Of a DNA stretch of 64,000 bases, positions 6,649-34,885 are shown one piece after another. Within the stretch, counting starts at the first letter, position 1, and each line of letters begins with the position of its first letter. Both the position numbers and the translations under genes were made by a program. Origin of the DNA: Paludibaculum fermentans. Lineage in GTDB: Bacteria > Acidobacteriota > Terriglobia > Bryobacterales > Bryobacteraceae. The DNA is taken from positions 5,843,501 through 5,907,500 of the forward strand of contig NZ_CP063849.1 in NCBI RefSeq assembly GCF_015277775.1, read 5' to 3'. The notes beneath the pieces are model-generated. The model worked only from the letters and a program-made list of their open reading frames with translations, did not search any database and was not told the DNA's origin.

Positions 6649-7791
6649 TCACCTCCGAAGGTTTTCGTACAGCTTTATGTTTGCGGTGGAAGCCCCAATG
6701 CAGACGATATCCGCTTTCCCATCGCCTGTGAAGTCTTCAATCTTACAATCTGCGCCGGCGATGCCGCCGTCGTCCAGCACGGTCCGCTTCCAGTGCTCCC
6801 CTGCCTTGTCCTCGGCCTGGTAGACGGAGAGCCGGAACCCCTTGCCGCGGAAGCCGGAGACAATCTCATCGCGGCCATCACCGTCCAGATCGCCCACGGC
6901 CAGGGCGTGCGCATTGATCATGCCGTCTTCAATCACGATCCGTTTCCACGACTTTCCCCGCGGCAGATAGACCACCACCTGATTGCCGTGCCAGGGCTCG
7001 ATCGCCGTGATGAAGCGCTGCTTACCCAATTTGCCCAGCCGTACCTCACTGCTGCCGCATTCCGGGCACTTGCGGGGGTCACCCTTGCTGAGCTCGGTCC
7101 ACTTCCAGCCGCCTCCCTTCTTTGGCTCAAACAGCCGCAGGCCATCGAAACTAGCCGTGATCAGGCGCTGGCCGTGCGTGGTCCAATCCACCGGAGCTAT
7201 GGCATGGACAATGCCGTGCAGCTCTTCCGTCACCGTTTCGCGCTTCCAGGCGCCCGGACGGTACAGATAGACAGGCGTCTGTCCCTCATATAGCGGCGGC
7301 TTCGCGGTGAGTCCCACCAGCGGAGACAGCAGCAGCACCTTCTTGCCGTCGCCGTTCCAGTCGATCCAGCGCAGGCGGTGGGCGGTGGGGATGCGGTCGA
7401 GCTCGCGCATGGTCCACGGTTGCCGCACATCCTTGCCGCTCTTCAGCAGATAGACGTCACCGATGCTCTTTTCCGGGCTGGTTTCGAAGTGGGTGGCTAC
7501 CACGCATTCCGGAATCCCATCGCCGTCGTAGTCGAAGCAGTCGAGGTTGATGGGCCGCGGAGCATTGCTGGCCATCACGTGACGCTCCCACGTCGGGTTC
7601 TCAAACCAGGCGAGCTCCGTTGCCCGTTCATCGACCGCGATCAGGTCCTTCTTGCCATCTCCGTTCAGGTCAACCGCAACCAACTGGTAGCCCATTTTCA
7701 GGCCGCTTGTCACCACATGCGCCCGGAAAGCCGGCAATTCGCCGCCACACAACGGCAGCGCCAGGAGGAACAGATACAAGTGTCTAGTCAT
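6649..7791 (-). CDS. Exported FG-GAP/VCBS repeat protein
   Basis: 380 residues from ATG 7791, which gives a clean Sec signal peptide (MTRHLYLFLLALPLCGG). The mature protein contains several FG-GAP calcium-binding repeat cores of the type DLNGDGKKDLIAV, DYDGDGIPECVV, DWNGDGKKVLLL, DLDGDGRDEIVS and DFTGDGKADIVC, which predicts a seven-bladed beta-propeller in the periplasm or outside the cell. The longer upstream extension in frame (to 7890) is not plausible, since it would put an unrelated stretch before the signal peptide. It is the first gene of a two-gene operon with the lipase-like gene at 5228. Propeller proteins of this kind often bind ligands or partner enzymes; a direct role is not shown here. 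Confidence 0.8.
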   Translation of the reverse strand: MTRHLYLFLLALPLCGGELPAFRAHVVTSGLKMGYQLVAVDLNGDGKKDLIAVDERATELAWFENPTWERHVMASNAPRPINLDCFDYDGDGIPECVVATHFETSPEKSIGDVYLLKSGKDVRQPWTMRELDRIPTAHRLRWIDWNGDGKKVLLLSPLVGLTAKPPLYEGQTPVYLYRPGAWKRETVTEELHGIVHAIAPVDWTTHGQRLITASFDGLRLFEPKKGGGWKWTELSKGDPRKCPECGSSEVRLGKLGKQRFITAIEPWHGNQVVVYLPRGKSWKRIVIEDGMINAHALAVGDLDGDGRDEIVSGFRGKGFRLSVYQAEDKAGEHWKRTVLDDGGIAGADCKIEDFTGDGKADIVCIGASTANIKLYENLRR

Positions 7792-7845
7792 GTCAATGAA
7801 ACCCCGCATCCGCGGGACACATCCTTTGCACAAAGAGTTCTCTGT

Positions 7846-7861
7846 GATAATAGATACTATG
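7846..7861 (+). promoter_or_regulatory. -10-like GATAAT seven bases before ATG 7859 (candidate leaderless start)
   Basis: GATAAT at 7846-7851 matches five of six bases of the sigma-70 -10 box, and seven bases separate it from the ATG at 7859. There is no Shine-Dalgarno sequence. TTGCAC at 7826-7831 is the nearest -35-like word but the spacing (14) is short. If used, the transcript would begin at or within a base of the start codon. Confidence 0.4.
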
Positions 7862-9328
7862 CGTTTCGTGCGCACCTTATTCTGGTGCACATTAGCCGCC
7901 GTCTGTACTGGGGCGCTGGAGGCTCAATCCGTGATTGAGCCGGTGAATGTGGAGGAGACCGGGGGGGATGCAGTACCAACACTCCCAGTCCTGCCACCTG
8001 CATTCGTCCGTCCGGTTGAATCCCTGCCGAGGGAACCGTGGATTCAGCCCAGCCGCCAGGAAGGTGTGAACTGGAGCGGCGTTTTCAAGCAGTCGGCGCT
8101 CTTTCTGGGCATCGAACATTCCTTTCGCCTTTTGTCCGAACCAGGCACCCGCGAGGGCATGAAGGGCTCGTTCTTCTCCGGTTGGCTGGCGGCTTCGGGC
8201 AATCTTCACGGCTGGGCGGACGGCGACCCCTTCTACGTCAACTACGTAGGACACCCCATGCAGGGGGCGGTTTCCGGCTACATCTGGGTCCAGAACGACG
8301 GCAAATACATCGACGCGGAGTTCGGCGCCAACCGGCACTACTGGAAAAGCCGGCTGCGGGCGGCCGCATTCTCAGCGGCTTACAGCTTCCAATTCGAAGC
8401 CGGGCCGGTCAGCGAAGCCTCCATCGGAAAGGTGCAGGGCAAGTGGCCCCAGCAGGGTCTAGTAGACCATGTGATTACGCCATTTGTCGGAACCGGCTGG
8501 ATGATCGGCGAGGACGCTATCGACCGCTTCATCATCAAGAAGCTGGAAGCGAAGTGGGAGAATCCTTATGCGATGGTTTTCGTGCGGGGCGTCCTCAACC
8601 CCTCGCGGTCGCTGGCCAATGTCCTGCGCTTCCAGGTGCCATGGGTACGTGACGACCGTCCTGGGCTGTGGTCCCCGATGCACTCTGCCTACGTGCGCGA
8701 ACTGCGCGAAGGCCGTATCTCCGGCTTACCGCCGGAAGCGCCGCCCGAACTCGAAGGCGAGGCGGGGCTGTCGTCTTTCGAATTCAGCCTGGATGCCCAG
8801 CCGCAATTCTTCTTCGGCAGTGGCGGGACAGGCCCCTGCATGGGCGGCGGCGGCGAGGCTGCATTACGCATGACTCCGAGCTGGCAACTGGTCGCGCAGG
8901 TGCATGGCTGCAAACTGAATGGGTTGCCTCAGAACCTGAGCGGCGACACCCTCAGCTTTTACGCCGGACCGCGCTGGAATCCCAATCCCACCGGCCGCTG
9001 GAGCCCTTACTTCCACGTCCTGGTAGGCGGCATGAAAGTGTCGCAGGAGGAGATGTTCCCGGCTCTCAAGGAGGCGGTGGAGAAAGCCGCGAAAGAGAAG
9101 GGCGAGCCGGAAGTCGCGCTGCACGATCTCTACACGAAGGAGTATGAGGCGAACGGCTTCTCCATGGCGGCTGGAGGCGGTGTGGACCTGCGCGTGAATC
9201 CTGCCATCGCGCTGCGCCTGGCGAATCTGGAATACAAACGCTCGTGGCTGCCGCCCGCCAATGGGCGCGACTACAACAGCGGCCTGGCGTTCACCGTTTC
9301 GATGGTGCTGCGCATGGGCACCTGGTAG
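7859..9328 (+). CDS. Exported outer-membrane beta-barrel-like protein
   Basis: 489 residues from ATG 7859, which places a signal peptide (MRFVRTLFWCTLAAVCTGALEA) at the N-terminus; the upstream in-frame ATG at 7790 lacks one. A central segment around residues 70-230 is rich in Gly and aromatic residues. The C-terminal ~200 residues alternate polar and aromatic residues in beta-hairpin style and end in VLRMGTW, an aromatic C-terminus typical of BAM-inserted outer-membrane proteins. I do not recognise a named family; similar proteins occur in Acidobacteria. It is divergent from the FG-GAP gene at 7791, with only 67 bp between start codons. Confidence 0.65.
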   Translation: MRFVRTLFWCTLAAVCTGALEAQSVIEPVNVEETGGDAVPTLPVLPPAFVRPVESLPREPWIQPSRQEGVNWSGVFKQSALFLGIEHSFRLLSEPGTREGMKGSFFSGWLAASGNLHGWADGDPFYVNYVGHPMQGAVSGYIWVQNDGKYIDAEFGANRHYWKSRLRAAAFSAAYSFQFEAGPVSEASIGKVQGKWPQQGLVDHVITPFVGTGWMIGEDAIDRFIIKKLEAKWENPYAMVFVRGVLNPSRSLANVLRFQVPWVRDDRPGLWSPMHSAYVRELREGRISGLPPEAPPELEGEAGLSSFEFSLDAQPQFFFGSGGTGPCMGGGGEAALRMTPSWQLVAQVHGCKLNGLPQNLSGDTLSFYAGPRWNPNPTGRWSPYFHVLVGGMKVSQEEMFPALKEAVEKAAKEKGEPEVALHDLYTKEYEANGFSMAAGGGVDLRVNPAIALRLANLEYKRSWLPPANGRDYNSGLAFTVSMVLRMGTW

Positions 9329-9331
9329 ACG

Positions 9332-10195
9332 TCAGCGCAGAGCCTCCGCAACCGGTTTGCCGGTCCAACACGGGTGTGGCGCGACACCGAAGATCGCGGC
9401 GATGGTGGCCGCCGTGTCGATGGTCCGCACCAGCGAGCGGATCTCGCGGCCGGGCGGTACCGCGGGTCCATTGAGAATCCACGGAATCTCGAGATCGCGC
9501 TGGGTGGGGTGACCATGGCTTGTGCCGGTGCCGCCGTGGTCGGCCGTAAAAAGGATAAATGTGCTGTCCGCCATGCCCGAGTCCCGGATAGCCTTGTGTA
9601 GCGAGTCCAACAAACCGCCTACCATCTCCACCGCTTTCCGGTACTCCGGGCCAGACCAGCCGTGGTCGTGACCGGCATGGTCGACATCGTCCAAATGAAT
9701 GAAGAGCAGATCCGGCTTCGCTGCCTTCCAGTACTCGATGGCGGCCTGCATCGCCTCCGGACTCCCTTTCACGTGGCGTAACACCGGTACCGCTCCGGGT
9801 TCGATCAGGCGGCCGAAGTCCTTCCAGTCGTGAAACACGGCCAGGCGCAGCTCCGGCCGTTTGTCGTGCAACAGCCCGAATACGGTGGGGAAACGGCCGT
9901 TCGCGTCCTTACAGGCGGGTGCGATGTCGAACTTGTCCGGCTGCCAGTCGTTCGAGGTAACCCCGTGAAGCTCAGGTACGGCGCCCATGATCATCGACGC
10001 CCAGTTCGGGCTGCTTACGGTCGGCAGCACGCCGCGCGCATGCAGCGTCCACGCGCCGCTCTTCATCAGGCCCTGGATTTGGGGCGGCGCCTCTTCACGC
10101 AACATCTCCGCGCCGAGTCCATCCACGCCGACAACAATCACATGCCGCTGGCCATGGGCGGCCATCGCGATCAGGAGTACCAGGGCCAAACGCAT
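9332..10195 (-). CDS. Exported type I phosphodiesterase/alkaline-phosphatase-superfamily protein
   Basis: 287 residues from ATG 10195 (signal peptide MRLALVLLIAMAAHG). Motifs of the nucleotide pyrophosphatase/phosphodiesterase group are present: GVDGLGAEML near the mature N-terminus (metal-binding Asp), nucleophile region PTVSSPNWASM, HLDDVDHAGHDHG, and FTADHGGTG with two metal ligands. The enzyme should hydrolyse phosphodiester or phosphomonoester substrates in the periplasm using two metal ions. ATG 10195 was preferred to ATG 10204 because TATCAT lies exactly 7 nt upstream and neither start has an SD. It is convergent with the outer-membrane gene, with 3 bp between stops. Confidence 0.82.
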   Translation of the reverse strand: MRLALVLLIAMAAHGQRHVIVVGVDGLGAEMLREEAPPQIQGLMKSGAWTLHARGVLPTVSSPNWASMIMGAVPELHGVTSNDWQPDKFDIAPACKDANGRFPTVFGLLHDKRPELRLAVFHDWKDFGRLIEPGAVPVLRHVKGSPEAMQAAIEYWKAAKPDLLFIHLDDVDHAGHDHGWSGPEYRKAVEMVGGLLDSLHKAIRDSGMADSTFILFTADHGGTGTSHGHPTQRDLEIPWILNGPAVPPGREIRSLVRTIDTAATIAAIFGVAPHPCWTGKPVAEALR

Positions 10196-10202
10196 ACCGA
10201 GC

Positions 10203-10208
10203 ATGATA
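10203..10208 (-). promoter_or_regulatory. -10-like TATCAT seven bases before ATG 10195
   Basis: On the minus strand TATCAT (5 of 6 consensus bases) is followed by seven bases and the ATG at 10195. There is no SD in the interval, so a leaderless transcript is possible. The hexamer overlaps the alternative ATG at 10204, which argues against that start. Confidence 0.35.
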
Positions 10209-10228
10209 TCCGCATGCGCGGAGGGGCG

Positions 10229-11389
10229 TCACTGCCGGGCGTTCAGTGAACGGATCCCATCGGCCAGATCGGAGGGACGGTAGATAGGGATCACCTTCCC
10301 CTTGGCCGATTTCACCAGGCTCGTGACGGAATCCCCATCGCTGGGATAAGCCGGTGGAGTAAAGGCCAGGAACCAGGTCTTGGGCAGAGCCTCGCGCAGG
10401 GCCGGATCAATCGGCGGCAGTTTGGGCCCGGCGCGCCATGTCGGTCCCACGAAAACAAATGCGTCGCTCTGTGTAGGATCCTTCACCTCTGTGCGCAGCA
10501 TCTCTTCCAGGAAGTCCTTCGGCGAAGGTCCATTCTTCAGCGTCGCCATGTCGATCGTGCTGAGGTCTACTGCGGCCAACTGGCGGATGAGCCGGCGCAT
10601 ACTACGGCGGTCGAAAACGGCCTCCCGGTAAATGACATTGCGGCGCTCCAGGTCGAACACCACAACGCAGGCCGAGGTGAAATTGGCGTCACGCAGCAGG
10701 GAATTCAGGCTGCTCAGCAGGATCTGGCGATCCCACGGTGAGAGCTTGGTGACCACGCGCCGGGGCCATACGGGCGCTGCATGGAGAAAGATGGTGGCGT
10801 GGGATGCCTTCGTTCCGGGCGCCAGCGCGGGAAAGCCAGGCCAGATCTCATTGCCCAGGGCCTGCACGGTGCCCGGCGGGACCGTCGGCGACACGGCCTT
10901 GAAGTTTGCTGTCAGTTTCCAGGCAGCCTTGCAGCGGCGTCCCTTGCCATCGGCCATCAGCCATTCCACTGAATACTTACCCTGACCCACATAGAAGCCG
11001 CCGCCCATGCGCAGTTCCAGCTTCCTGAGGTCAGCGCCCTCGGGATACTTGCCGGGCACCTCGAACGGCAGCCAGAGATACTTGGGCTTGGCCGGGCCTT
11101 CGCTGGGAATGACACGAAACACCACGGCGGAGGAACGATCCGGTTTGCCATCGAACTCCGCTGCGGAAATCGCCACCTGGAAGCCGGTCCAGATCCGCAG
11201 GCCATAGTCGAGCGCCGGATTGAAGTGAGTGATGGTGCACGCCAGCTTACCTGCCTGCGGATCATTCCAGAACGAATCGAAGGCCACGACAGCCTTGCGA
11301 CCCTGCTCTGACTCAGGATCCAGCTCAAGTTGAGCGAGCAGCGGATAGGCCGCCCACAACGCAATCAGGCAAAGCCGCCCGTGGAACAT
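10229..11389 (-). CDS. Secreted protein of unknown function with vWA-like C-terminal half
   Basis: 386 residues with a signal peptide (MFHGRLCLIALWAAYPLLAQ). Residues ~20-180 are beta-rich. Residues ~190-386 alternate strands and helices in a von Willebrand A-like pattern (HATIFLHAAPVW, CVVVFDLERR, DAFVFVGPTW, TWFLAFTPPAY) but lack the DxSxS metal site, so metal-dependent adhesion is unlikely. Start ATG 11389 is preceded by GGAGAAGG with good spacing and by TATGAT further upstream. The protein ends 33 bp before the phosphodiesterase start and may be cotranscribed. I do not recognise a named family; this looks like a lineage-specific acidobacterial protein. Confidence 0.6.
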   Translation of the reverse strand: MFHGRLCLIALWAAYPLLAQLELDPESEQGRKAVVAFDSFWNDPQAGKLACTITHFNPALDYGLRIWTGFQVAISAAEFDGKPDRSSAVVFRVIPSEGPAKPKYLWLPFEVPGKYPEGADLRKLELRMGGGFYVGQGKYSVEWLMADGKGRRCKAAWKLTANFKAVSPTVPPGTVQALGNEIWPGFPALAPGTKASHATIFLHAAPVWPRRVVTKLSPWDRQILLSSLNSLLRDANFTSACVVVFDLERRNVIYREAVFDRRSMRRLIRQLAAVDLSTIDMATLKNGPSPKDFLEEMLRTEVKDPTQSDAFVFVGPTWRAGPKLPPIDPALREALPKTWFLAFTPPAYPSDGDSVTSLVKSAKGKVIPIYRPSDLADGIRSLNARQ

Positions 11390-26369: not shown

Positions 26370-28523
26370 TTATCTGTGCGCACTGGGATCGCCGGTCGGC
26401 GGCGGAGCCAGGTCCTCCTGCGCCGGTGCGCCCAGCAACTCCTGGAACAGCGGCTTCAAAGCGTCCGCCCAGGCCTGATATGCCGGCTCCACCGGGTGGA
26501 GCTTGTCCGCGCTCATCATGCCCGGCCTCAGCACGCCCTGGCTGTCCGCCAGTTTGTCGTTGATATTCAGATACCGCACCTTCGCGCCGTCCGCCGTCTT
26601 CGCCAGATTGGCGTTGATCCCGTTGATCACCGGCATCGCCGCCATGTTGTCGTTGCGCGGGAAGATTCCGGTGACGATGATCGTTGCGTTGGGCGCCTTG
26701 CTCCTGATCGCATCGACGACAGCTTGCAGCCCCTTGCTGACATCCGCGATCAGGGCGTCTTCCGAACCCCGCACCGTCCTGGAGCCGATGTTGTTCGTGC
26801 CGGCCATCACCACGACGACCTTCGGGTTCACCCCTTCCAACTCCCCATTGTTGAGGCGCCACAGAATGTTCTGGGTCCGGTCTCCCCCCCAACCGAAATC
26901 GGCGGCGTTCCAGCCGGAGAAATTGCGCTTCCAGTTGGCCAGAAACTCGGGATAATCCGTGGCGCCCCAGCGCCGCGTAATCGAATCCCCCTCGAAGTAG
27001 ATGTCGATCCGCCCCTTCTTGGCCTTCTCCACCAGTTGTCCGTGCGCGACGATCGAATTTGCGTCCATGCGCGGCGCCGCCACATCCGCCGCAATCGGCG
27101 GAGCCGGCTCTCCCACATACGAAATGAACTTGCTCGCCCACGGGAGGAAGTACTTCCAGTTCGGGCCGTCCGTGTGACCGCCGTCGTGCTGCCGCCACGC
27201 CAGTTGCCCTTCCAGCAGGCTGACATTCACACCCGGCATCTTGGCCGTCCGGTAATCCCCGGTCACGCCGATGTCCTTTACCCCAAGCAGCCGGAACACC
27301 GGACCCGCGGCCACCGTCGCCATGAAGCTCCCCTGTTGGTCGAGCCACTTCGCGTCGCCCTTCTCCGGAATCCCATAGCTGATGAACGTGAGCCGCGGCG
27401 CGCACAGCGCAATCAGTTCGTGCGAGTCCACCGGCACATCGCCCGCGTTCTTGCTCCCAACCGTCGCCTCCGCCGCGCCATACTTCAGGAAATTGCCGGC
27501 CATCCAGTGGTATTCGCCGGAGCCCGTCAGGTTCTCCACGGCCTCACCAAAGTTGCGGCGGTGCGGCTTGGCCCCACCTTCCCCCGAGGAGCCCACCAGC
27601 ACCAGCGCGAACCGCGTGTCGTACGCCATCGTCACGAGAGCCGCTTTCCCATACCGCGAGACCCCCTCGATGCCCACATGCTTCGCATCGACAGCTGCAT
27701 CGGTCTCCAGATAATCCAACCCCCGTGAAGCACCCCAACCCCAGGCCCGCAGCGCGCCCCAGTCCTCCGGCTTCCTCGGCTGGCCCTTGTTCACCAGCCC
27801 GATGATGCCCTTGGTCAGTCCCGCGCCGTTGTCGGCCTGCACGCTGCCCGGATTCAGCAGCGCGTAGCCCCAGCCCGCCGCGATCAACTGCATCGTCGAT
27901 GGCGGATCCGTCCCCGCCATGGCCGCAAATCGGGCCATGGCTGCCGGCAGCGGCGTGGGAGGCAGCGCCGCCCGGCCGAACATCATCATCACCGGAACCG
28001 GCTTCTTCGTCCAAGCCGGAGTCACCACCACCATCTGGATCTCCACACTGATCGCAGGGCACAGGCTGTTATCCGCACGGCCCGTGAGCTCCTTCGCGAT
28101 GACTGGATACGGCCCCACCATGTCGTTTACTGTCTTGGTAACAGTCCACGTGATCTTCGGAACGACGGGAGGAACCCGGCCCAGCACCTCACGGTCAAAG
28201 TCCTCCACGATCTCCGGCCGCCGCTGCTTCCACCACGCCTCAGCCGTCGTGACCGGCTGCCCGTTCTTCAACGTCAGAACGGCCGGGTAGTCCGGAAAGG
28301 GATTGGCCGTGGCTTCGTCGTAGTTCGCATGATTCGGCGCGCTCTCGTTCCCGCTCGGACCCGGCCGCAGCGCCTTGATGCCGAGCTGCTCCATCATATT
28401 GCGATGGTCTTCGGCGGCGGTCCAGTTTTTCGGTTCAGGAGACTGGCCGTTCACTGCAAACAGCATCGAAGCAGCGAACAACAGGGACATTGAGCGGGAC
28501 AGGCAATTGGGGCGGCTAGGCAT
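26370..28523 (-). CDS. Exported CE15 glucuronoyl-esterase / SGNH-esterase fusion
   Basis: 717 residues from ATG 28523 (SD GGGAG 6 nt upstream), with a signal peptide ending near FAVNGQ. Residues ~80-460 are a CE15 4-O-methyl-glucuronoyl methylesterase: nucleophile Ser289 in EGVSRYGKAAL and a late HDGGHTDGPNW that supplies the histidine. Residues ~500-700 are an SGNH hydrolase of the PAF-acetylhydrolase type: Ser514 in FEGDSITRRWG, GWGGDRTQNILW, MAGTNNI and the DKLHP catalytic pair. CE15 enzymes break lignin-glucuronoxylan ester bonds; the second domain could remove acetyl groups from the same polymer. The upstream frame to 28697 is not part of the gene. Confidence 0.85.
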   Translation of the reverse strand: MPSRPNCLSRSMSLLFAASMLFAVNGQSPEPKNWTAAEDHRNMMEQLGIKALRPGPSGNESAPNHANYDEATANPFPDYPAVLTLKNGQPVTTAEAWWKQRRPEIVEDFDREVLGRVPPVVPKITWTVTKTVNDMVGPYPVIAKELTGRADNSLCPAISVEIQMVVVTPAWTKKPVPVMMMFGRAALPPTPLPAAMARFAAMAGTDPPSTMQLIAAGWGYALLNPGSVQADNGAGLTKGIIGLVNKGQPRKPEDWGALRAWGWGASRGLDYLETDAAVDAKHVGIEGVSRYGKAALVTMAYDTRFALVLVGSSGEGGAKPHRRNFGEAVENLTGSGEYHWMAGNFLKYGAAEATVGSKNAGDVPVDSHELIALCAPRLTFISYGIPEKGDAKWLDQQGSFMATVAAGPVFRLLGVKDIGVTGDYRTAKMPGVNVSLLEGQLAWRQHDGGHTDGPNWKYFLPWASKFISYVGEPAPPIAADVAAPRMDANSIVAHGQLVEKAKKGRIDIYFEGDSITRRWGATDYPEFLANWKRNFSGWNAADFGWGGDRTQNILWRLNNGELEGVNPKVVVVMAGTNNIGSRTVRGSEDALIADVSKGLQAVVDAIRSKAPNATIIVTGIFPRNDNMAAMPVINGINANLAKTADGAKVRYLNINDKLADSQGVLRPGMMSADKLHPVEPAYQAWADALKPLFQELLGAPAQEDLAPPPTGDPSAHR

Positions 28524-28710
28524 CGTGGACTCCCGGAATTGGCAGCACCTAGTGTATCGATTCATTTCCCCGGTTGCAGGCCCTTGGGGGAGGCATGCAC
28601 GAGCCAGCTCGCCGGCTTCCAGCCTGATTTGCAGCCTGGACCGGTGCCCGGATAGCCTCTCAATCCAGCCTTTCCACTTCAGCCTCACCTTCCACACTCC
28701 AGCGGGAAGC

Positions 28711-28722: not shown

Positions 28723-29886
28723 ATGAGGTTGCTGGCCCTATTCACCCTCCTCGCCACAGTTCTCAATGGGTGCGAATCCGTCACCTTGATCTGGATGCCC
28801 TTCACCAATTCCGCCGATCCGCTCTTTCGCATCATTGAGAATGACCGCGCCGGATACATCGACGCCCAGGGGCGCGTCGTGATCCCGCCGACCCTTCGGT
28901 TCATGAGCGAGGGCGGCCAGGCTTTTCACGACGGTCTGCTTTCGCTTGGGATATCGGCTGGCCCATTCCTCGACAGCAAGGGGCAAAAGGTTCTGGACAA
29001 CCACTTCTATCGCGTCTGGAACTTCTCCGAAGGCCTGGCCGCGGCCATGGAGACCTCAGAATCCGCTTGGGGCTACATCGACCGCTCCGGCCAGTTCGTG
29101 ATCCCACCGAAGTTTCCGTTCTATCCAAAAGGCGCGGTTAGTGACTTCTCGGAAGGGCTGGCCGCCGTCGAAGTGGAAGGGAAACTCGGCTACATCGATC
29201 GCACGGGCGCTTTCGTGATTCCGCCTCAATTCGCAGCCGGAACCAGCTTCGAGAATGGCCTCGCCCGGGTGGTGGTGAATGGGCCCTGTTCCTACATGAA
29301 CTACGATTCCGCTGACCCCTGTATGGCCATGTCCCCTGCGGTGGCACCTACCACGCGAAACGACGCGGAGAAACCGCCCGCTCCAACCCGCCAATGCCAG
29401 TGGATCTTCATCGACAAGACCGGCCGCAGAGCGATCTCCTCCCAATTTGAAGGTGCCATGGCCTTCCACGAAGGACTGGCGGCCGTCCGCTCCGGGGACC
29501 AATGGGGCTTCCTCAATCGCCAGGGCGCCTACGAGATCTACCCGGCCTTCGAAGCGGTGCATTCTTTCTCCGACGGCCTGGCCCTGGTGTCGAACGGCAA
29601 GGACAGCGGCTTCATCGACAGGACAGGAGCCCTCAAAATCCGCGTCGACTACTACCACGCGAAACCGTTCTCAGAAGGCCTGACCGTCATCCGGACACCC
29701 GAGGACCGCTACATCTACGTCGACACCACCGGCAAACAGGCGATCCCGGAAACCTTTCTCCTGGCCAGCCGTTTCTTCCACGGCCTGGCCCACGTCAAGC
29801 TGACCTCAACCTCCAAGTTCGGACGCAGCGGCACCTACGCCTACATCGATAAAACCGGCAAACGTGTGTACGAGTACACGCGCTGA
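28723..29886 (+). CDS. WG-repeat lipoprotein
   Basis: 387 residues. The N-terminus MRLLALFTLLATVLNGC ends in a lipobox cysteine at residue 17. The rest is made of WG/KWG-type beta repeats, each about 45-55 residues long and marked by GYIDAQGRVVIPP, GYIDRSGQFVIPP, GYIDRTGAFVIPP, IFIDKTGRRAIS, GFLNRQGAYEIYP and YAYIDKTGKR, separated by FSEGLAAV-type links. The repeats should build a beta-propeller on a lipid anchor in the periplasm or outer membrane. Ligand unknown. It is divergent from the CE15-SGNH gene. Confidence 0.85.
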   Translation: MRLLALFTLLATVLNGCESVTLIWMPFTNSADPLFRIIENDRAGYIDAQGRVVIPPTLRFMSEGGQAFHDGLLSLGISAGPFLDSKGQKVLDNHFYRVWNFSEGLAAAMETSESAWGYIDRSGQFVIPPKFPFYPKGAVSDFSEGLAAVEVEGKLGYIDRTGAFVIPPQFAAGTSFENGLARVVVNGPCSYMNYDSADPCMAMSPAVAPTTRNDAEKPPAPTRQCQWIFIDKTGRRAISSQFEGAMAFHEGLAAVRSGDQWGFLNRQGAYEIYPAFEAVHSFSDGLALVSNGKDSGFIDRTGALKIRVDYYHAKPFSEGLTVIRTPEDRYIYVDTTGKQAIPETFLLASRFFHGLAHVKLTSTSKFGRSGTYAYIDKTGKRVYEYTR

Positions 29887-30528: not shown

Positions 30529-33500
30529 CTACCGCGCATCAATCTGGCGGTTGATCGTCGTGTCCTTGATCTTCTTATCCTCCGCCAGCAGAAAGGCCTT
30601 GCTCAAAATGACAGCCAGGGTCAGGTCCCCTTCGAACGGCAGATAGATCTCGCCCTCGGCTGATCCGGCCCGGGCATCCCGCACGATGCACAGATACTGG
30701 TCATTCGGCTCCATCAGGATATTGCCGGAGCCCAGGTGGATCTTGTACGTCCGCCGGTCGCCACGCACCTCCAGGAATCGCTCGGTCAGGGTGCACCGGC
30801 CCGCGATCTTCAATCGCGGCACCAGCCTCTGCAGCGTTTCGCGTCTTGTGACCGCTGTGGCCGAAAGCGCCCCAAAGGAATAGGACGCCCAATAATTGCC
30901 GTGTTGCGCGGCATGACCGCCATCCTGCCACGTAGGATCGTTGCCGATCGAAGACACCCCGACAAACAGATCCACATCCCGCATGATCTCGGAGAGCACC
31001 AGCTCTGGAATCTGGTCGAGCCTCAGCGGTTCGTTGATGTTCTCAACCCCTGGTCCCATCGCATTCGCACAGTAGCCGCCGCCACCGGCATGAGCCGCAT
31101 TCTGCGCGGCGCCGATTCGATAGAAACGCACTTGGTCGGTGGCAAGCCGGTGGTAGACCCCCGCGTCGTTCGTATCCGCGCCATAGTCTGTCCCCACGCC
31201 CTCCACCCAGAACTCAGCCCGCAGCCCCCAGGCCGTCAATTCGCGGCTGGCGGGTGGATAGGAATCGTCCACCAACAGCCGGAGCTTATTCTTCCACCGC
31301 CGGGCTCCGCAGAGAGCGTTGAACTGGTGCTGCCGGAGGATGTGGCCCGCGAACCGGTTCGAATAAGTGGAGGTCTGCTGCTCTGCATCGGTCAGCAGAT
31401 AGACTTCCCGATGGGCCTGCTTGAAGGGCTGCACAATGTCCAGTTCTTCAATCCTGCGGCGCCAGGCAACCACTTCGTCGATGCTCTTGCCCGTGGGATG
31501 CCACAGCGAGACCAGGGCACCCTCAGGAATCTCATGGCGGTTGCCCTGCACATCCAGAGCCTCGCCATCCGCTACCGTAACCGCGGTCTCCCCGATTGAC
31601 CAGATGAGCCGCCGCCCAATCGTGCCAACCAGTGGATGATCGACGTACCGCTCTCTCCACACTTCCGCCGGCCAACTCTTCCGTTCCAGGAACAGGGCAT
31701 CCACCCGGTCCCGCTGCGCCGACAGCATCGACTTCACGTCGCTGAGCCCCTGCTGAAGCTCCTTGAGTGTTTCGCCCCCGCTCTTCTTCACCGCCGCCGG
31801 AATCGACTTCAGCGGCTTTCCCTTCGCATCGAACCACTTCAGTTCGGCCTCGCTGCCCGTCACGGCCAACTCCGCCCGGTATTCGCCGAATACCTCCTCG
31901 CGCCGGCCGACACTCTCCAGCCCACAGGCCGGCACGCTCATCTCTTCAACCTGATCGCGCGGCAACTCCAGCGCCTGGGCAGCCCCATCGAAGGCTTTCT
32001 CGATCTCCTTCTGCGCTGTCCCGAAGCGCACTCTCACCTTCAGCATGGCCAACTGCCCCATCGCCTCCGGTGAAACCATCTCAGACAACGCATAGACCGC
32101 CGCATTCCCCGCCTTGACCGCGCGCGGCCCGATGCCCGGAATCTTCTTGTAACTGGAAAGCGCGACGGAGCCCACCAGGCGCGCCAGCCCCGCGGGCTGG
32201 GGGAGCAGCGGGATCGACCACAGCAGGCCTCTCAAAGCATTGGCGTTCTCGTCATGCATGGAGTCAGCCGCGCCGCGCGTGTCACCGAGAAATCCAGGGG
32301 CCTTCAGCAGAGTCCGCCCGCGCGCCACCAGCGGCAACCACCTCTCCATCGCCTCGCGGAACTGAGCTTCCCCCAGTTCCGCCACGAGGAGCATCGTGGC
32401 CTTCTTCCATTTGCCCGAAGGCCTCGAGGAACTGGCCCCCAACAGGTGCTCCAGCAGCTTGACCCATCTGGAACGGGACGCTCCGTCAAGGCTGGCAATG
32501 TCTGCGTTCAATGCATCACTCCAGGCTTCTCCGGGTACCAGGTAAAAGCGCGCGGAGTCGCCAATCCATTCCGTGATTCGCTCGATCTCCGGAGCACCGA
32601 TCCCTAACGGCGGTCCGCTGACCCTAGCCCCGCGCCAAAGATGAAGCACGAATCGCTCTCCGTCACTCAGGTTTGCTCCGTTACCGGTAAACTCCTCAAT
32701 AGCGTTGAGGACCGTCTCTATCAGCCTCTCAGGCAACTGATCCGAGGCAGCTCTCATCGAGAGATACAACAGGAAGTCGAATAGTCCCTCGCGATCGAAC
32801 TGCGCTCCCGAAGCGATCAACGTCCGGGCAATGGCCGCGACGGCATAGTTGGCCTGCCACACCCGCGTATTCAGGTAGTCGGGACTGGAGCCCAGCAGCG
32901 TTTCCAGATAACGCTCAGCCGCGGCCAGCATCATCCGCCCTCGTCGCGGAGGGTCGAGCGCCAACACTTCCCGGCCCGCCGCGAAATTGCCGAGAACGGG
33001 GTTGTGGTAACTGTCGGCTTCCAGGATCTCTGTCAGTAGTTCCGTCAGCTTGCCGTGCTCCCAACTCAGCGGGGATCCGGGGGGTAGTGGGAAACGGTCC
33101 GGCTCAATCTGAACGCCGGTGTGCTCTGGAACGGTATTCGTGATCCCAAGCGCCAGCTTGAGGTTGTTCAGGACCAAGGGCGTGCCCACCGGCGCGGGCT
33201 CGGGCGGCGGAGCGGCCGTCCTGGGCGGTTCCACCTCTTCTGTCGCAAGCCCCGCCCGCCCGCAAATCTGCTCGAGCGTCGTGCCCATCCGGCTGGACTC
33301 CCGGTTGTGCGAACTTCGCAGCGCTACCGCAAAGGCGCGCGTAGCCTCGCGCAGCTCCGTGTCCAGTTCATGCGCGGCTATGTAGCGTTGAATTGCCTGG
33401 GTCAACATCGAGACCGAAACCTGATAAAAGCTCGGATGGTTGGGTCCGATGCACCATTCGATCAAAGCCAACAGGTCACTCCTCGTGAAAGGCAGCGCCC

Positions 33501-33861
33501 GGCGCAGCAGTGCGGAGATCAGCGATTCCACCGCCTGCCGCGGAGTCCACCACCGGATCCACTCGGGGTGCGTTTGCGGATTGAGGCGGTCCATGTCCGT
33601 CTTGCCTTCTGCACGAACTCGCGCCACCTGCGCATCGAAGTAACTTACCTGCTCCAGGCAGGCCAGGATCAACCGCCTGGCTCCCTCCGGCGGCGTCTCC
33701 CACAGAATGCGGCCGCTCTCCGTGGACTTTATCTCGAGTGGTCGGAAGAACCCGCCGTAGGCCACCGGCCGCGCCACATCGCGAATCCAGCGGCTGATGG
33801 CCTCATGCTCGGAGCCAAGCGGATGGCCGGCTTGCGGCGGAAACTCCTCGATCTTCGCCAC
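30529..33861 (-). CDS. DUF4132-domain giant protein (MolR-like)
   Basis: 1110 residues, no signal peptide or membrane helix. The N-terminal ~650 residues are helical and HEAT-like. The C-terminal ~280 residues match the DUF4132 pattern: VADGEALDVQGNRHEIPEGA, then LVSLWHPTG, and IVQPFKQAHREVYLLTDAEQ, with the late GEIYLPFEGDLTLAVILSKA. The family is large, cytosolic and of unknown activity; in E. coli the related MolR was linked to molybdate regulation and in other bacteria such genes sit with AAA/MoxR or WGR proteins. The GTG start at 33861 follows the stop of the Gly-Gly protein by 3 nt with GGGGG as SD, so the two are translated together. No terminator is clear at 30529. Confidence 0.8.
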   Translation of the reverse strand: MAKIEEFPPQAGHPLGSEHEAISRWIRDVARPVAYGGFFRPLEIKSTESGRILWETPPEGARRLILACLEQVSYFDAQVARVRAEGKTDMDRLNPQTHPEWIRWWTPRQAVESLISALLRRALPFTRSDLLALIEWCIGPNHPSFYQVSVSMLTQAIQRYIAAHELDTELREATRAFAVALRSSHNRESSRMGTTLEQICGRAGLATEEVEPPRTAAPPPEPAPVGTPLVLNNLKLALGITNTVPEHTGVQIEPDRFPLPPGSPLSWEHGKLTELLTEILEADSYHNPVLGNFAAGREVLALDPPRRGRMMLAAAERYLETLLGSSPDYLNTRVWQANYAVAAIARTLIASGAQFDREGLFDFLLYLSMRAASDQLPERLIETVLNAIEEFTGNGANLSDGERFVLHLWRGARVSGPPLGIGAPEIERITEWIGDSARFYLVPGEAWSDALNADIASLDGASRSRWVKLLEHLLGASSSRPSGKWKKATMLLVAELGEAQFREAMERWLPLVARGRTLLKAPGFLGDTRGAADSMHDENANALRGLLWSIPLLPQPAGLARLVGSVALSSYKKIPGIGPRAVKAGNAAVYALSEMVSPEAMGQLAMLKVRVRFGTAQKEIEKAFDGAAQALELPRDQVEEMSVPACGLESVGRREEVFGEYRAELAVTGSEAELKWFDAKGKPLKSIPAAVKKSGGETLKELQQGLSDVKSMLSAQRDRVDALFLERKSWPAEVWRERYVDHPLVGTIGRRLIWSIGETAVTVADGEALDVQGNRHEIPEGALVSLWHPTGKSIDEVVAWRRRIEELDIVQPFKQAHREVYLLTDAEQQTSTYSNRFAGHILRQHQFNALCGARRWKNKLRLLVDDSYPPASRELTAWGLRAEFWVEGVGTDYGADTNDAGVYHRLATDQVRFYRIGAAQNAAHAGGGGYCANAMGPGVENINEPLRLDQIPELVLSEIMRDVDLFVGVSSIGNDPTWQDGGHAAQHGNYWASYSFGALSATAVTRRETLQRLVPRLKIAGRCTLTERFLEVRGDRRTYKIHLGSGNILMEPNDQYLCIVRDARAGSAEGEIYLPFEGDLTLAVILSKAFLLAEDKKIKDTTINRQIDAR

Positions 33862-33864
33862 GGC

Positions 33865-34269
33865 TTAGCCCCCTACCAACGGCACGAGCTTGACGAAACT
33901 GATCTTCGTAGAAGGTCCGGCCGCGATCTCCTCGTCCAGGCTCTCCACCTGCCGGTCGTCGACGATCACGAAGTAGGCATTCCGGGCAAACCCGTCCAGC
34001 GCCCGCGCAAACTGCGCCTCCCAATCAATCGGCGCGCGTTTCCGGAAGCGAGGCTCCGCCTTGTCGCTGTTGAGGACCCGTTCCGTCTCGGTTGGTTGAA
34101 CCAGGCCCTGGAATGCCTTTCCATCATCGCGGCGGTTGAACGCCCGCACCTCCTGATGGACGCGTTCCCTGATCAGCTCGCGGACCGTAATTCGTTCGGT
34201 CAGGAACTCGACCGACACTTCGTGCAGGGACTGACCCGAAGGCGTTTCGTCCCGGATGCAAAGCAGCAT
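33865..34269 (-). CDS. Beta-grasp (ubiquitin-like) candidate protein ending in Gly-Gly
   Basis: 134 residues from ATG 34269 (SD GAGG 8 nt upstream; the GTG at 34317 is less well placed). Strand 1-2 segment SLHEVSVEFLTERITVREL, helix IRERVHQEVRAFN, then a polar loop of ~45 residues, strand FVIVDDRQVESLDEEI and the last strand ISFVKLVPLVGG, which ends the protein in Gly-Gly. The order strand-strand-helix-loop-strand-turn-strand and the free C-terminal GG match ubiquitin, ThiS and MoaD-like proteins. It is the first gene of a two-gene operon with DUF4132. No E1-like, E2-like or JAB gene is in the window. The fold and any conjugation or sulfur-carrier role are inference. Confidence 0.7.
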   Translation of the reverse strand: MLLCIRDETPSGQSLHEVSVEFLTERITVRELIRERVHQEVRAFNRRDDGKAFQGLVQPTETERVLNSDKAEPRFRKRAPIDWEAQFARALDGFARNAYFVIVDDRQVESLDEEIAAGPSTKISFVKLVPLVGG

Positions 34270-34885
34270 TCTGGAATCCTCGCGGCGAAAGCCGAAGCAA
34301 TTTCCGTCAGTACTCACGGATGAACTTCAGATTGTACCGGGAATTCTGCCGCAATGACTCAGGCCAGCCTCCGCCCCCCGCGAGGCCCTCAGCGCTCGCA
34401 ACCGCGCTGCAAACCGCGACTGGCAAGGAGTCCCCCATGGCCCTGCGGGCCGCCAAAGCGAATGAAGCCGGGCCCCCACATCCCCAGTCCCGGAGCGCAG
34501 CGACGGGCTACGCGGGCGGCTTCAACGGAGTGGTCCGCGGACACATGCGCCTCTCTTGACCCCAGCCAGGCGCCTTTTGCGACCTGCCCGGCCAGACGGT
34601 GCCCGCCGCGACAGAAGAATATCTCTCTTCAAATCAACCGCTTCCCAAAAACCGTGCCGAAAAGCCGGGGATCGGCCTGCTATCATCTCCGCGGATCCGG
34701 AGGGTGTGTCCGCCCGGGTCCCAGTCGTGGGGCACCCGGTGCCGCGCGAAGGCTCTTTGACATTTAAACCGCCGCGTCGCCTGGGGCCGCCCCACGCCCG
34801 CACTCATTCGAAAAATTCGCATTCGAACCAATTAACTAATTAATTATCAATAAGATGCGTTTTCAAACGAACCCAACGCAACCGC
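34270..34885. other. Gene-free region upstream of the Gly-Gly/DUF4132 operon
   Basis: About 616 bp without a credible gene. Near 34331-34336 the minus strand reads TACAAT, a plausible -10 for the operon. At 34412-34540 lie the repeat words shared with 29887-30528. Hairpins GGCAC/GTGCC (~34732-34744) and TGGGG-CCG-CCCCA (~34779-34791) are followed by an unusually AT-rich 50-bp patch (34805-34856, with TTCGAA and AATTAA palindromes). The patch follows the 3' end of the HAD gene. Confidence 0.55.
34331..34336 (-). promoter_or_regulatory. -10 box TACAAT upstream of the Gly-Gly/DUF4132 operon
   Basis: TACAAT on the minus strand, 61 bp before ATG 34269. The best -35 candidate (AGTCAT at 17 bp) is weak, so an activator may be needed. 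Confidence 0.4.

Follow-up and report, generated by a model that had tools for sequence, protein, structure and literature searches.

Introduction

The nearest published counterpart of the gene pair considered here is found in Deinococcus radiodurans, where DRA0165-DRA0166 is under the control of DdrO and IrrE (PMC8533742). In that study, drA0165-drA0166, a putative operon, is strongly induced upon DdrO depletion, and tagged DRA0166 rises after treatment with mitomycin C in the wild type and not in an irrE mutant. DRA0165 has also been studied separately, under the name SEP068184 (PMC9650054). The protein is raised by gamma rays and H2O2, its knockout is more resistant to H2O2, and it binds Trx1; 157 co-immunoprecipitated proteins, including Trx1, are common to the N- and C-terminally tagged forms. 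SEP068184 was predicted to be MoaD/SAMP1-like, with MOCS2 and SAMP1 among the matches, and is stated to have no RDRM and to be confined to Deinococcus.

The word "ubiquitin" does not occur in the main text of either article, and DRA0166 is not named in the passages of PMC9650054 that report the SEP068184 pull-down. Outside Deinococcus, no description of a ubiquitin-like (Ubl) protein paired with a DUF4132 protein was found among the titles and abstract beginnings of a mostly non-subscription literature. The initial annotation of the DNA analysed here, made from sequence alone, knew of no described pair of this kind. That view has to be amended in part, since drA0165-drA0166 has been published as a putative operon and DRA0165 has been described as MoaD-like; the Gly-Gly (GG) end, the relation to ubiquitin, and the wider spread were not found in the parts of the literature consulted.

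The Ubl Gene and Its Partner

The window, that is, the whole stretch of 64,000 nucleotides of Paludibaculum fermentans DNA that was analysed (C1:5843501-5907500), carries the Ubl gene on its minus strand at 33865..34269. The gene starts with ATG and encodes 134 residues with a predicted beta-grasp fold, a helical insert, and a free C-terminal GG. The protein ends in ...KLVPLVGG, followed by TAA, and the codons for Gly133-Gly134 (33868..33873, minus strand) are immediately 5′ of the stop. A sequence resembling a ribosome-binding site, GAGGA (34277..34281, minus strand), is found 7 nt 5′ of the ATG. Since this putative site and the homologues agree, the start is placed at the ATG at 34269, rather than at a GTG further upstream.

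The junction with the next gene reads GGGGGC TAA GCC GTG, so that the GTG of the partner gene lies 3 nt past the Ubl stop. The partner gene (30529..33861, minus strand) encodes 1110 residues, with a helical-repeat region at about residues 13-642 followed by a C-terminal region of mixed alpha/beta structure. The latter contains DUF4132 (PF13569; 31294..31821, minus strand; residues 681-856, E 4.4e-51) and, as the last domain, DUF7737 (PF24879; 30541..30852, minus strand; residues 1004-1107, E 7.3e-40), which is the domain that co-occurs with the Ubl. The initial annotation had reported a 134-residue reading frame ending in Gly-Gly, 3 nt before a 1110-residue DUF4132 gene, and this arrangement is confirmed on the minus strand; DUF7737 was not mentioned there.

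The small protein of the window gave no match above cut-off to Pfam or NCBIfam families. PADLOC models gave no match at E 0.01 to any of the four proteins compared, so that no known anti-phage system was recognised, and no relative was found on viral contigs. Elsewhere in the window, a single ORF (26370-28697) combines a glucuronyl-esterase-like domain with a GDSL lipase domain, and the adjoining ORF (28723-29886) encodes a protein with seven WG-repeat matches.

Predicted Structures

The AlphaFold2 model of the Ubl, built from 50 homologues, has a mean pLDDT of 81.4 and a pTM of 0.74. Its elements are strands at residues 2-8 and 14-21, a helix at 29-46, an insert at 47-97, and strands at 99-103, 114-116, and 123-127. 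This prediction is close to the strands, helix, loop, and closing strands that had been guessed from the sequence. The tail, residues 131-134, has pLDDT below 50 and is disordered in the model. The insert (33979..34131, minus strand) lies between helix 1 and strand 3 and is absent from ubiquitin. It is predicted to be helical, in part weakly, with low pLDDT in residues 51-80, and the homologue alignment shows a conserved FxGLVQPTxAExxLNG stretch within it.

A Foldseek search with the Ubl model gave a best E of 0.031 and none at or below 0.001, and the list of matches is dominated by ubiquitin-fold chains: 1wgk, MOCS2A/MoaD, ISG15, and ubiquitin. Among the top matches, 1wgk is an entry that we take to be URM1. 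With VIA-align, residues 1-132 of the model superpose on ubiquitin 1-76 over about 73 residues (rmsd about 2.1, Z 6.7-6.9), and the model matches MOCS2A over 79 residues (rmsd 3.4, Z 7.5). Going by titles or recall, the best 50 rows of the structural alignment list are presumably all ubiquitin-fold chains. The strand-strand-helix-strand-strand order of the predicted model matches that of ubiquitin across the whole domain, with all Z values below 8. Such values would be weak by themselves; the uniformity of the match list, together with the independent prediction for the Deinococcus homologue (PMC9650054), makes it likely that the small protein has a ubiquitin-like beta-grasp fold.

Sequence comparison adds a hint. 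No curated Ubl or ThiS family matched above cut-off, the best being Pfam ThiS at E 0.15, in one of the 50 homologues. With hhalign, a broad Ubl profile aligned with the CysO-like carriers of the host and its phylum relatives at Prob 19 over 31 columns, against 1.2 for the best of 30 column shuffles; the narrower profile A6 reached only 4.6. The ThiS and MoaD subsets alone gave about 1 and 2.5, near their shuffles, and all 14 carriers together gave 17-18 (at most 1.5 in 20 shuffles), the grouping of the 14 into ThiS, MoaD, and CysO-like being our own. A weak CysO-like resemblance is thus hinted at, with no family match. Of the alignments used, A6 holds 50 sequences and A7 holds 45, picked by start codon or completeness with Hymenobacter thinned. 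The fold with a MoaD/Urm1/ubiquitin-type tail proposed in the initial annotation therefore draws support from AlphaFold2 and the structural matches, and weakly from the profile comparison.

The AlphaFold2 model of the 1110-residue partner has a mean pLDDT of 85.7. Foldseek and VIA-align match it to helical-repeat proteins over about residues 13-642 and barely cover the C-terminal region. When the profiles of the Ubl and the partner were searched against PDB sequences, no convincing match appeared.

Distribution and Pairing

Genomes were scanned with a degenerate pattern for the Ubl tail, F[VLI][KYR]L[VT]PL[VKI]GG, written without a stop codon. There were at least 592 matches, at least 535 of them confirmed relatives, and 80 were kept for analysis. 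Going by record titles, these 80, together with the Deinococcus plasmid loci, place the Ubl in at least 15 phyla and next to the partner in at least 14, many of the homologue records being metagenome bins. The presence of relatives in many phyla argues against the statement in PMC9650054 that the protein is confined to Deinococcus.

In 73 of the 80 loci, the Ubl strand also carries a DUF4132-type ORF, which in 67 of them starts between -500 and +200 nt relative to the end of the Ubl. The partner is upstream of the Ubl in L020, L021, L043 (a fragment), and L075, and further downstream in L018 and L072. In L018, from the Verrucomicrobiia, the main Ubl (8992-9384) is accompanied by a second full Ubl-like ORF (7455-7863) and a C-terminal half copy (10041-10320), which both end VPLVGG and lie around a small gene, a local tandem duplication. 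Seven loci have no DUF4132-type ORF: L046 and L086 have 9 kb free downstream, the 2.8 kb downstream in L022 is occupied by another gene, and the remaining four end within 0.7 kb. When eight genomes were chosen for a Ubl locus without an intact partner, DUF7737 was found in six; none was found in G456 and G459, whose Ubl contigs end soon past the gene.

The converse search started from DUF7737 in the phylum to which the Saprospiraceae bin G457 belongs; 345 genomes were covered, and 13 places in 11 of them were found. The Ubl is at most 1.2 kb away in 12 of them, and the thirteenth (L166) is cut by the contig end. In L181, the partner comes first, followed by one gene and then the Ubl, and L182 has a partner fragment. 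A set of eleven DUF7737 places comes from G366 and the genomes without an intact partner at the Ubl locus, L166 and L168 belonging to both sets. A Ubl is present in L161, L163, L168, and L170, and none was found at the other seven. Of the latter, L165, L166, L167, and L171 have their start no more than 270 nt from a contig end, L169 is the fragment already noted as L043, and L162 and L164 have the partner within a contig that lacks the Ubl. The Ubl and the partner are separated in two genomes, which carry L046 with L162 and L086 with L164.

Two profile searches of 396 Acidobacteriota genomes found the Ubl and DUF7737 in exactly the same three, G000, G124, and G366. Such identity would be expected about 1 time in 10 million for independent random draws, a figure uncorrected for kinship. 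Two Acidobacteriota in which the Ubl had been found earlier, G006 and G034, also have DUF7737. The gene immediately 3′ of the Ubl in G006 encodes a DUF5724-type partner of 1566 residues. In G034, 434 kb separate the DUF7737 protein from the Ubl, whose next gene encodes a 438-residue, helical-only relative of the partner; it follows from this arrangement that co-occurrence at the genome level is stronger than adjacency. The helical-only relative (L189:2491-3808, reverse-complement coordinates) itself ends in Gly-Gly.

Distances among Ubls and among partners are correlated (Mantel r 0.54 for 49 short pairs and 0.91 for 14 long pairs), with none of 999 permutations as high. An all-against-all comparison of ORFs from 105 loci, made to look for a third component, gave two families that are widespread on the same strand, the Ubl and the partner, and no others; the remaining large ORF clusters look, by their position, like opposite-strand or other-frame ORFs of these two genes, and the rest are small. 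The two genes are not fused, as no ORF longer than 274 residues between stops contains the Ubl. Through adjacency, shared genomes, and the converse search, the coupling of the Ubl to a DUF4132 protein put forward in the initial annotation proves real and recurrent.

Neighbouring Genes, E1, and JAB

A Pfam scan covered the neighbours at 55 of the 80 loci, with 83 of the 89 ORFs upstream and 114 of the 139 downstream. Each ThiF, E2, or JAB family has at most one match among them; the neighbourhood survey suggested in the initial annotation thus shows no recurrent family of this type. That annotation had also seen no E1 or JAB gene nearby, and indeed all ThiF and Prok-JAB matches of the host are outside the window. 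The host genome has three ThiF matches and three ThiS-family matches, sited away from the window, and at C1:7087283-7088681 a ThiF gene is found with a CysO-like carrier and a JAB gene adjoining. ThiF is present in all five Ubl genomes tested and also in 11 of 14 controls; JAB is present in 8 of 14 control genomes. The host thus has an E1 and a JAB in trans, as do many bacteria, which would permit activation of the Ubl.

Several neighbours at single loci deserve mention. RNA- and DNA-repair genes (RlaP, DNA ligase with or without WGR, RtcB, and a DinG-like helicase) occur at few loci and are not recurrent, so they are a lead only. ATP-dependent DNA ligase genes with what we read as a SWIM-like Cys/His stretch are near DUF4132-DUF7737 genes at L163:11595-12923 and L043:4759-5844, the former with a WGR domain in addition. 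An RlaP-type RNA-repair nucleotidyltransferase gene is 5′ of a Trp-tail Ubl gene in three Bacteroidota genomes (L176:9322-10380, L178:9183-10241, and L179:9131-10228), an assignment based on a Pfam match for L176 and the clustering of the three ORFs. L176 and L179 also have Kinase-PolyVal ORFs. In Bacteroides finegoldii, a rhomboid protease gene (L011:8227-9981) ends 7 nt 5′ of the Trp-tail Ubl gene, and a GAF protein gene follows the partner. In a Hymenobacter locus, a DUF6493-DUF7824-DUF7825 protein is encoded directly 5′ of the Ubl (L063:5893-8895), these families matching 2 of the 83 upstream neighbours.

The C-Terminal Tail

Because the scan pattern itself held the GG, the GG count in the 80 homologues is biased. 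The pattern held no stop codon, and the GG directly at the stop in 79 of the 80 is not a matter of chance; the exception, L053, has a premature stop. Another 25 homologues, found without the GG-biased pattern, comprise 15 ending in GG, one in GA, and nine in Trp, two of the 15 (L173 and L174) probably being the same genes as L047 and L083.

The tail table has 106 rows, with DUF5724 assigned by a profile built from two sequences and L003 (G006) counted in the DUF5724 group. Among the rows whose partner lacks DUF5724, or that have no partner in the stretch, GG-stop is found in 89 of 90, with 79 of the 90 coming from the GG-biased scan. The 15 rows with a DUF5724 partner consist of six GG, one GA, and eight Trp-ending tails. 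The six are four Deinococcus, G006, and one planctomycete bin; the Trp tails are AGSYW, TGTYW, SGAYW, and SGRLW, and one more Trp tail is found beside a partner fragment. Tail type tracks partner type. The terminal GG, which the initial annotation had asked to be compared among homologues, is therefore nearly invariant in the group of the window and not in the family at large. Homologues without the GG, which by that annotation would refute its proposal, do exist: the Trp-ending rows of one clade, and the GA row.

In a tree built from 63 partner rows, those with Trp tails group together (SH-aLRT 89), and the GG, GA, and Trp tails can be explained by two changes. The ancestral tail is likely to have been GG, although the tree is rooted at its midpoint. 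The tree leaves aside 30 of the 31 Hymenobacter pattern-scan loci, the loci without a partner in the stretch, and the fragments L043, L077, and L182. Since Trp and GA tails occur with the partner kept, strictly GG-dependent chemistry is not universal. On the other hand, a GG-stop kept so strictly by the rows outside the DUF5724 group suggests carboxylate activation more than docking alone. Nature has replaced GG by a Trp-ending tail in one clade, a ready-made experiment on the purpose of the Ubl tail.

Conservation of the Partner

Across 63 partners, conservation reaches 97% or more at 31 positions, of which 21 are polar or charged and none is Cys. Conservation of C1058 reaches 90% or more in an alignment of 45 rows and stays below 97% in the 63. 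No partner position is conserved in both GG groups (at least 99% in long and at least 90% in short rows) and missing in the Trp group. Whatever chemistry the partner may have thus seems to be retained with either kind of tail. Such indifference to the last residues of the Ubl favours a docking tail over an obligatory substrate, and it argues against a thioester ligase.

N-terminal to residue 1034, the partner has 19 near-invariant positions, at which it was compared with nine DUF4132 sequences without DUF7737, of what we call the MolR/YehI type. P688, H788, Q815, F913, and E958 are retained in at least seven of the aligned rows, and most of the other positions are not retained. The E. coli control matches DUF4132 and not DUF7737. 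Two Acidobacteriota, G111 and G123, have five and six DUF4132 genes per genome (L095-L106), and neither a DUF7737 nor a Ubl match was found in them. In PMC8533742, moeA and moeB show no differential expression upon DdrO depletion. The molybdate link through MolR, from which the initial annotation had argued for a MoaD-like role, finds no support in these comparisons.

The Deinococcus Loci

In the D. radiodurans locus (L010), the Ubl ends LTALAGG and is followed by a 1626-residue DUF5724-DUF4132-DUF7737 protein. The sequence GGTTATGCTATTTACATAAC begins 82 nt 5′ of the first Ubl codon, in agreement with the site listed for DRA0165 at -83 in PMC8533742; the two together speak against the statement in PMC9650054 that there is no RDRM. 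A strict scan with the RDRM consensus of PMC8533742 matched none of five loci, which is explained by the listed DRA0165 site departing from that consensus at one position. The upstream motif TTATGCTATTTACATAA is kept in L006 and L013, and L012 has the differing form TTCTGCTATTTACAGAA. In the window, the consensus has no match with up to one mismatch allowed. About 1.8 kb past the DUF4132 gene of D. radiodurans, on the other strand, is modA (L010:14041-14339), a gene not listed in the stretches of the other three Deinococcus loci.

A Proposal for the Role of the Ubl

Our tentative preference, held at somewhat less than even confidence, is that the Ubl is a dedicated, stress-related subunit of a complex with the DUF4132-DUF7737 protein, with its tail used for docking. 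The beta-grasp body and the conserved helical insert would bind the partner, probably at the helical-repeat region. By analogy with the MoaD tail, which enters MoaE, the flexible tail may be presented to the conserved polar C-terminal region of the partner. The complex would be part of a stress response, made on demand in Deinococcus after DNA damage via IrrE/DdrO. In the GG majority, one might speculate that the carboxylate is also activated by a housekeeping MoeB/ThiF-type E1, leading to thiocarboxylate or isopeptide chemistry. One clade has swapped GG for a Trp-ending tail and retained the partner. The helical-only neighbour in G034 fits binding to the helical part and not a tail that needs the C-terminal site of the same neighbour, and this result lowered our confidence in the docking subunit.

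It is possible, although we give it less credence, that the Ubl is instead a modifier of the Urm1/SAMP/TtuB kind. In that case, a MoeB/ThiF-type E1 of the housekeeping set would adenylate the GG, stress would lead to conjugation to targets with no E2 taking part, and a housekeeping JAB protease would undo it; the DUF4132 protein would be ligase-like or a reader. The near-invariant GG-stop outside the DUF5724 group is in favour of this role, MOCS2A and 1wgk are among the top Foldseek matches, and the ThiF gene of the host with its CysO-like carrier and JAB gene could supply the enzymes. The oxidative-stress phenotype and Trx1 binding of the Deinococcus homologue (PMC9650054) have a parallel in yeast, where a peroxiredoxin is a target of Urm1 and its modification coincides with oxidative stress (PMC7016264). 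Conversely, the scanned neighbours contain no recurrent ThiF, E2, or JAB family, and the Trp-tail clade has no usable terminal GG unless processed, yet keeps the partner. The 157 proteins co-immunoprecipitated with both tagged forms of SEP068184 (PMC9650054) also make a set that does not depend on a free GG. A bolder version strikes us as improbable: a new bacterial Ubl signalling system that acts in the response to DNA damage and oxidative stress. The DUF4132-DUF7737 protein would there be a ligase or transferase of a new kind, with no catalytic Cys, taking the GG-activated Ubl from a housekeeping E1, and the Trp clade would be derived and non-conjugating or differently processed.

We also regard it as unlikely that the Ubl is a sulfur carrier whose GG thiocarboxylate feeds a sulfur insertion by the DUF4132-DUF7737 protein, as in MoaD-MoaE or CysO-CysM, even though its closest, if weak, sequence resemblance is to the CysO-like carriers of the host and its relatives, and its predicted fold is of the MoaD type. 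The genome already has three ThiS-family matches, no third gene recurs among the ORFs around the 105 loci, the Trp-tail clade retains the conserved residues of the partner, and the moeA/moeB result of PMC8533742 points the same way. It is very doubtful, finally, that the Ubl acts as an inhibitor of thioredoxin, lowering resistance to oxidative stress through Trx1 binding, as proposed for SEP068184. The published pull-down and the better survival of the knockout in H2O2 (PMC9650054) are in its favour, but of four annotated Deinococcus loci only one has trxC immediately upstream, thioredoxin families are missing from the best 25 of 126 upstream and the best 25 of 150 downstream neighbour families, and neither the conserved tail nor the partner is accounted for. 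The docking subunit is therefore placed ahead of the modifier, and the modifier ahead of the sulfur carrier.

Whichever role applies, the DUF4132 proteins that bear DUF7737 gain a partner that is near constant in the samples studied here, with a recognisable predicted fold and a testable tail.

Comparison with Known Systems

The DUF4132 proteins without DUF7737, as in E. coli and in G111 and G123, have DUF4132 in common with the partner. They differ from the window pair in having no DUF7737 and, in G111 and G123, no Ubl.

With MoaD/MOCS2A, ThiS, and CysO, the Ubl shares a beta-grasp fold, as predicted here, a flexible GG tail, and a small stand-alone gene with a functional partner. Unlike these carriers, it has a 50-residue insert, its partner is not MoaE, ThiG, or CysM, and the GG is replaced in one clade of its family. 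Nor does the Ubl correspond to the MoaD of molybdopterin synthase, the partner being a DUF4132-DUF7737 protein and no third gene recurring widely.

The Urm1/SAMP/TtuB group resembles the Ubl in its MoaD-type fold and GG end, and the host genome has a candidate E1 and JAB elsewhere. No dedicated E2 is known for these modifiers, which is a further resemblance. They differ from the window Ubl in that no DUF4132-DUF7737 partner is known in their systems. Urm1, SAMP, and TtuB are conjugated modifiers, whereas the Ubl of the window is known from a predicted fold and from genes.

The homologous pair DRA0165 (SEP068184)-DRA0166 has the same gene order as the window, and its partner likewise carries DUF4132 and DUF7737. 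DRA0166 has DUF5724 in addition, which the partner in the window does not. Through this pair, a module present in at least 15 phyla is now tied to the published DNA-damage induction in Deinococcus radiodurans.
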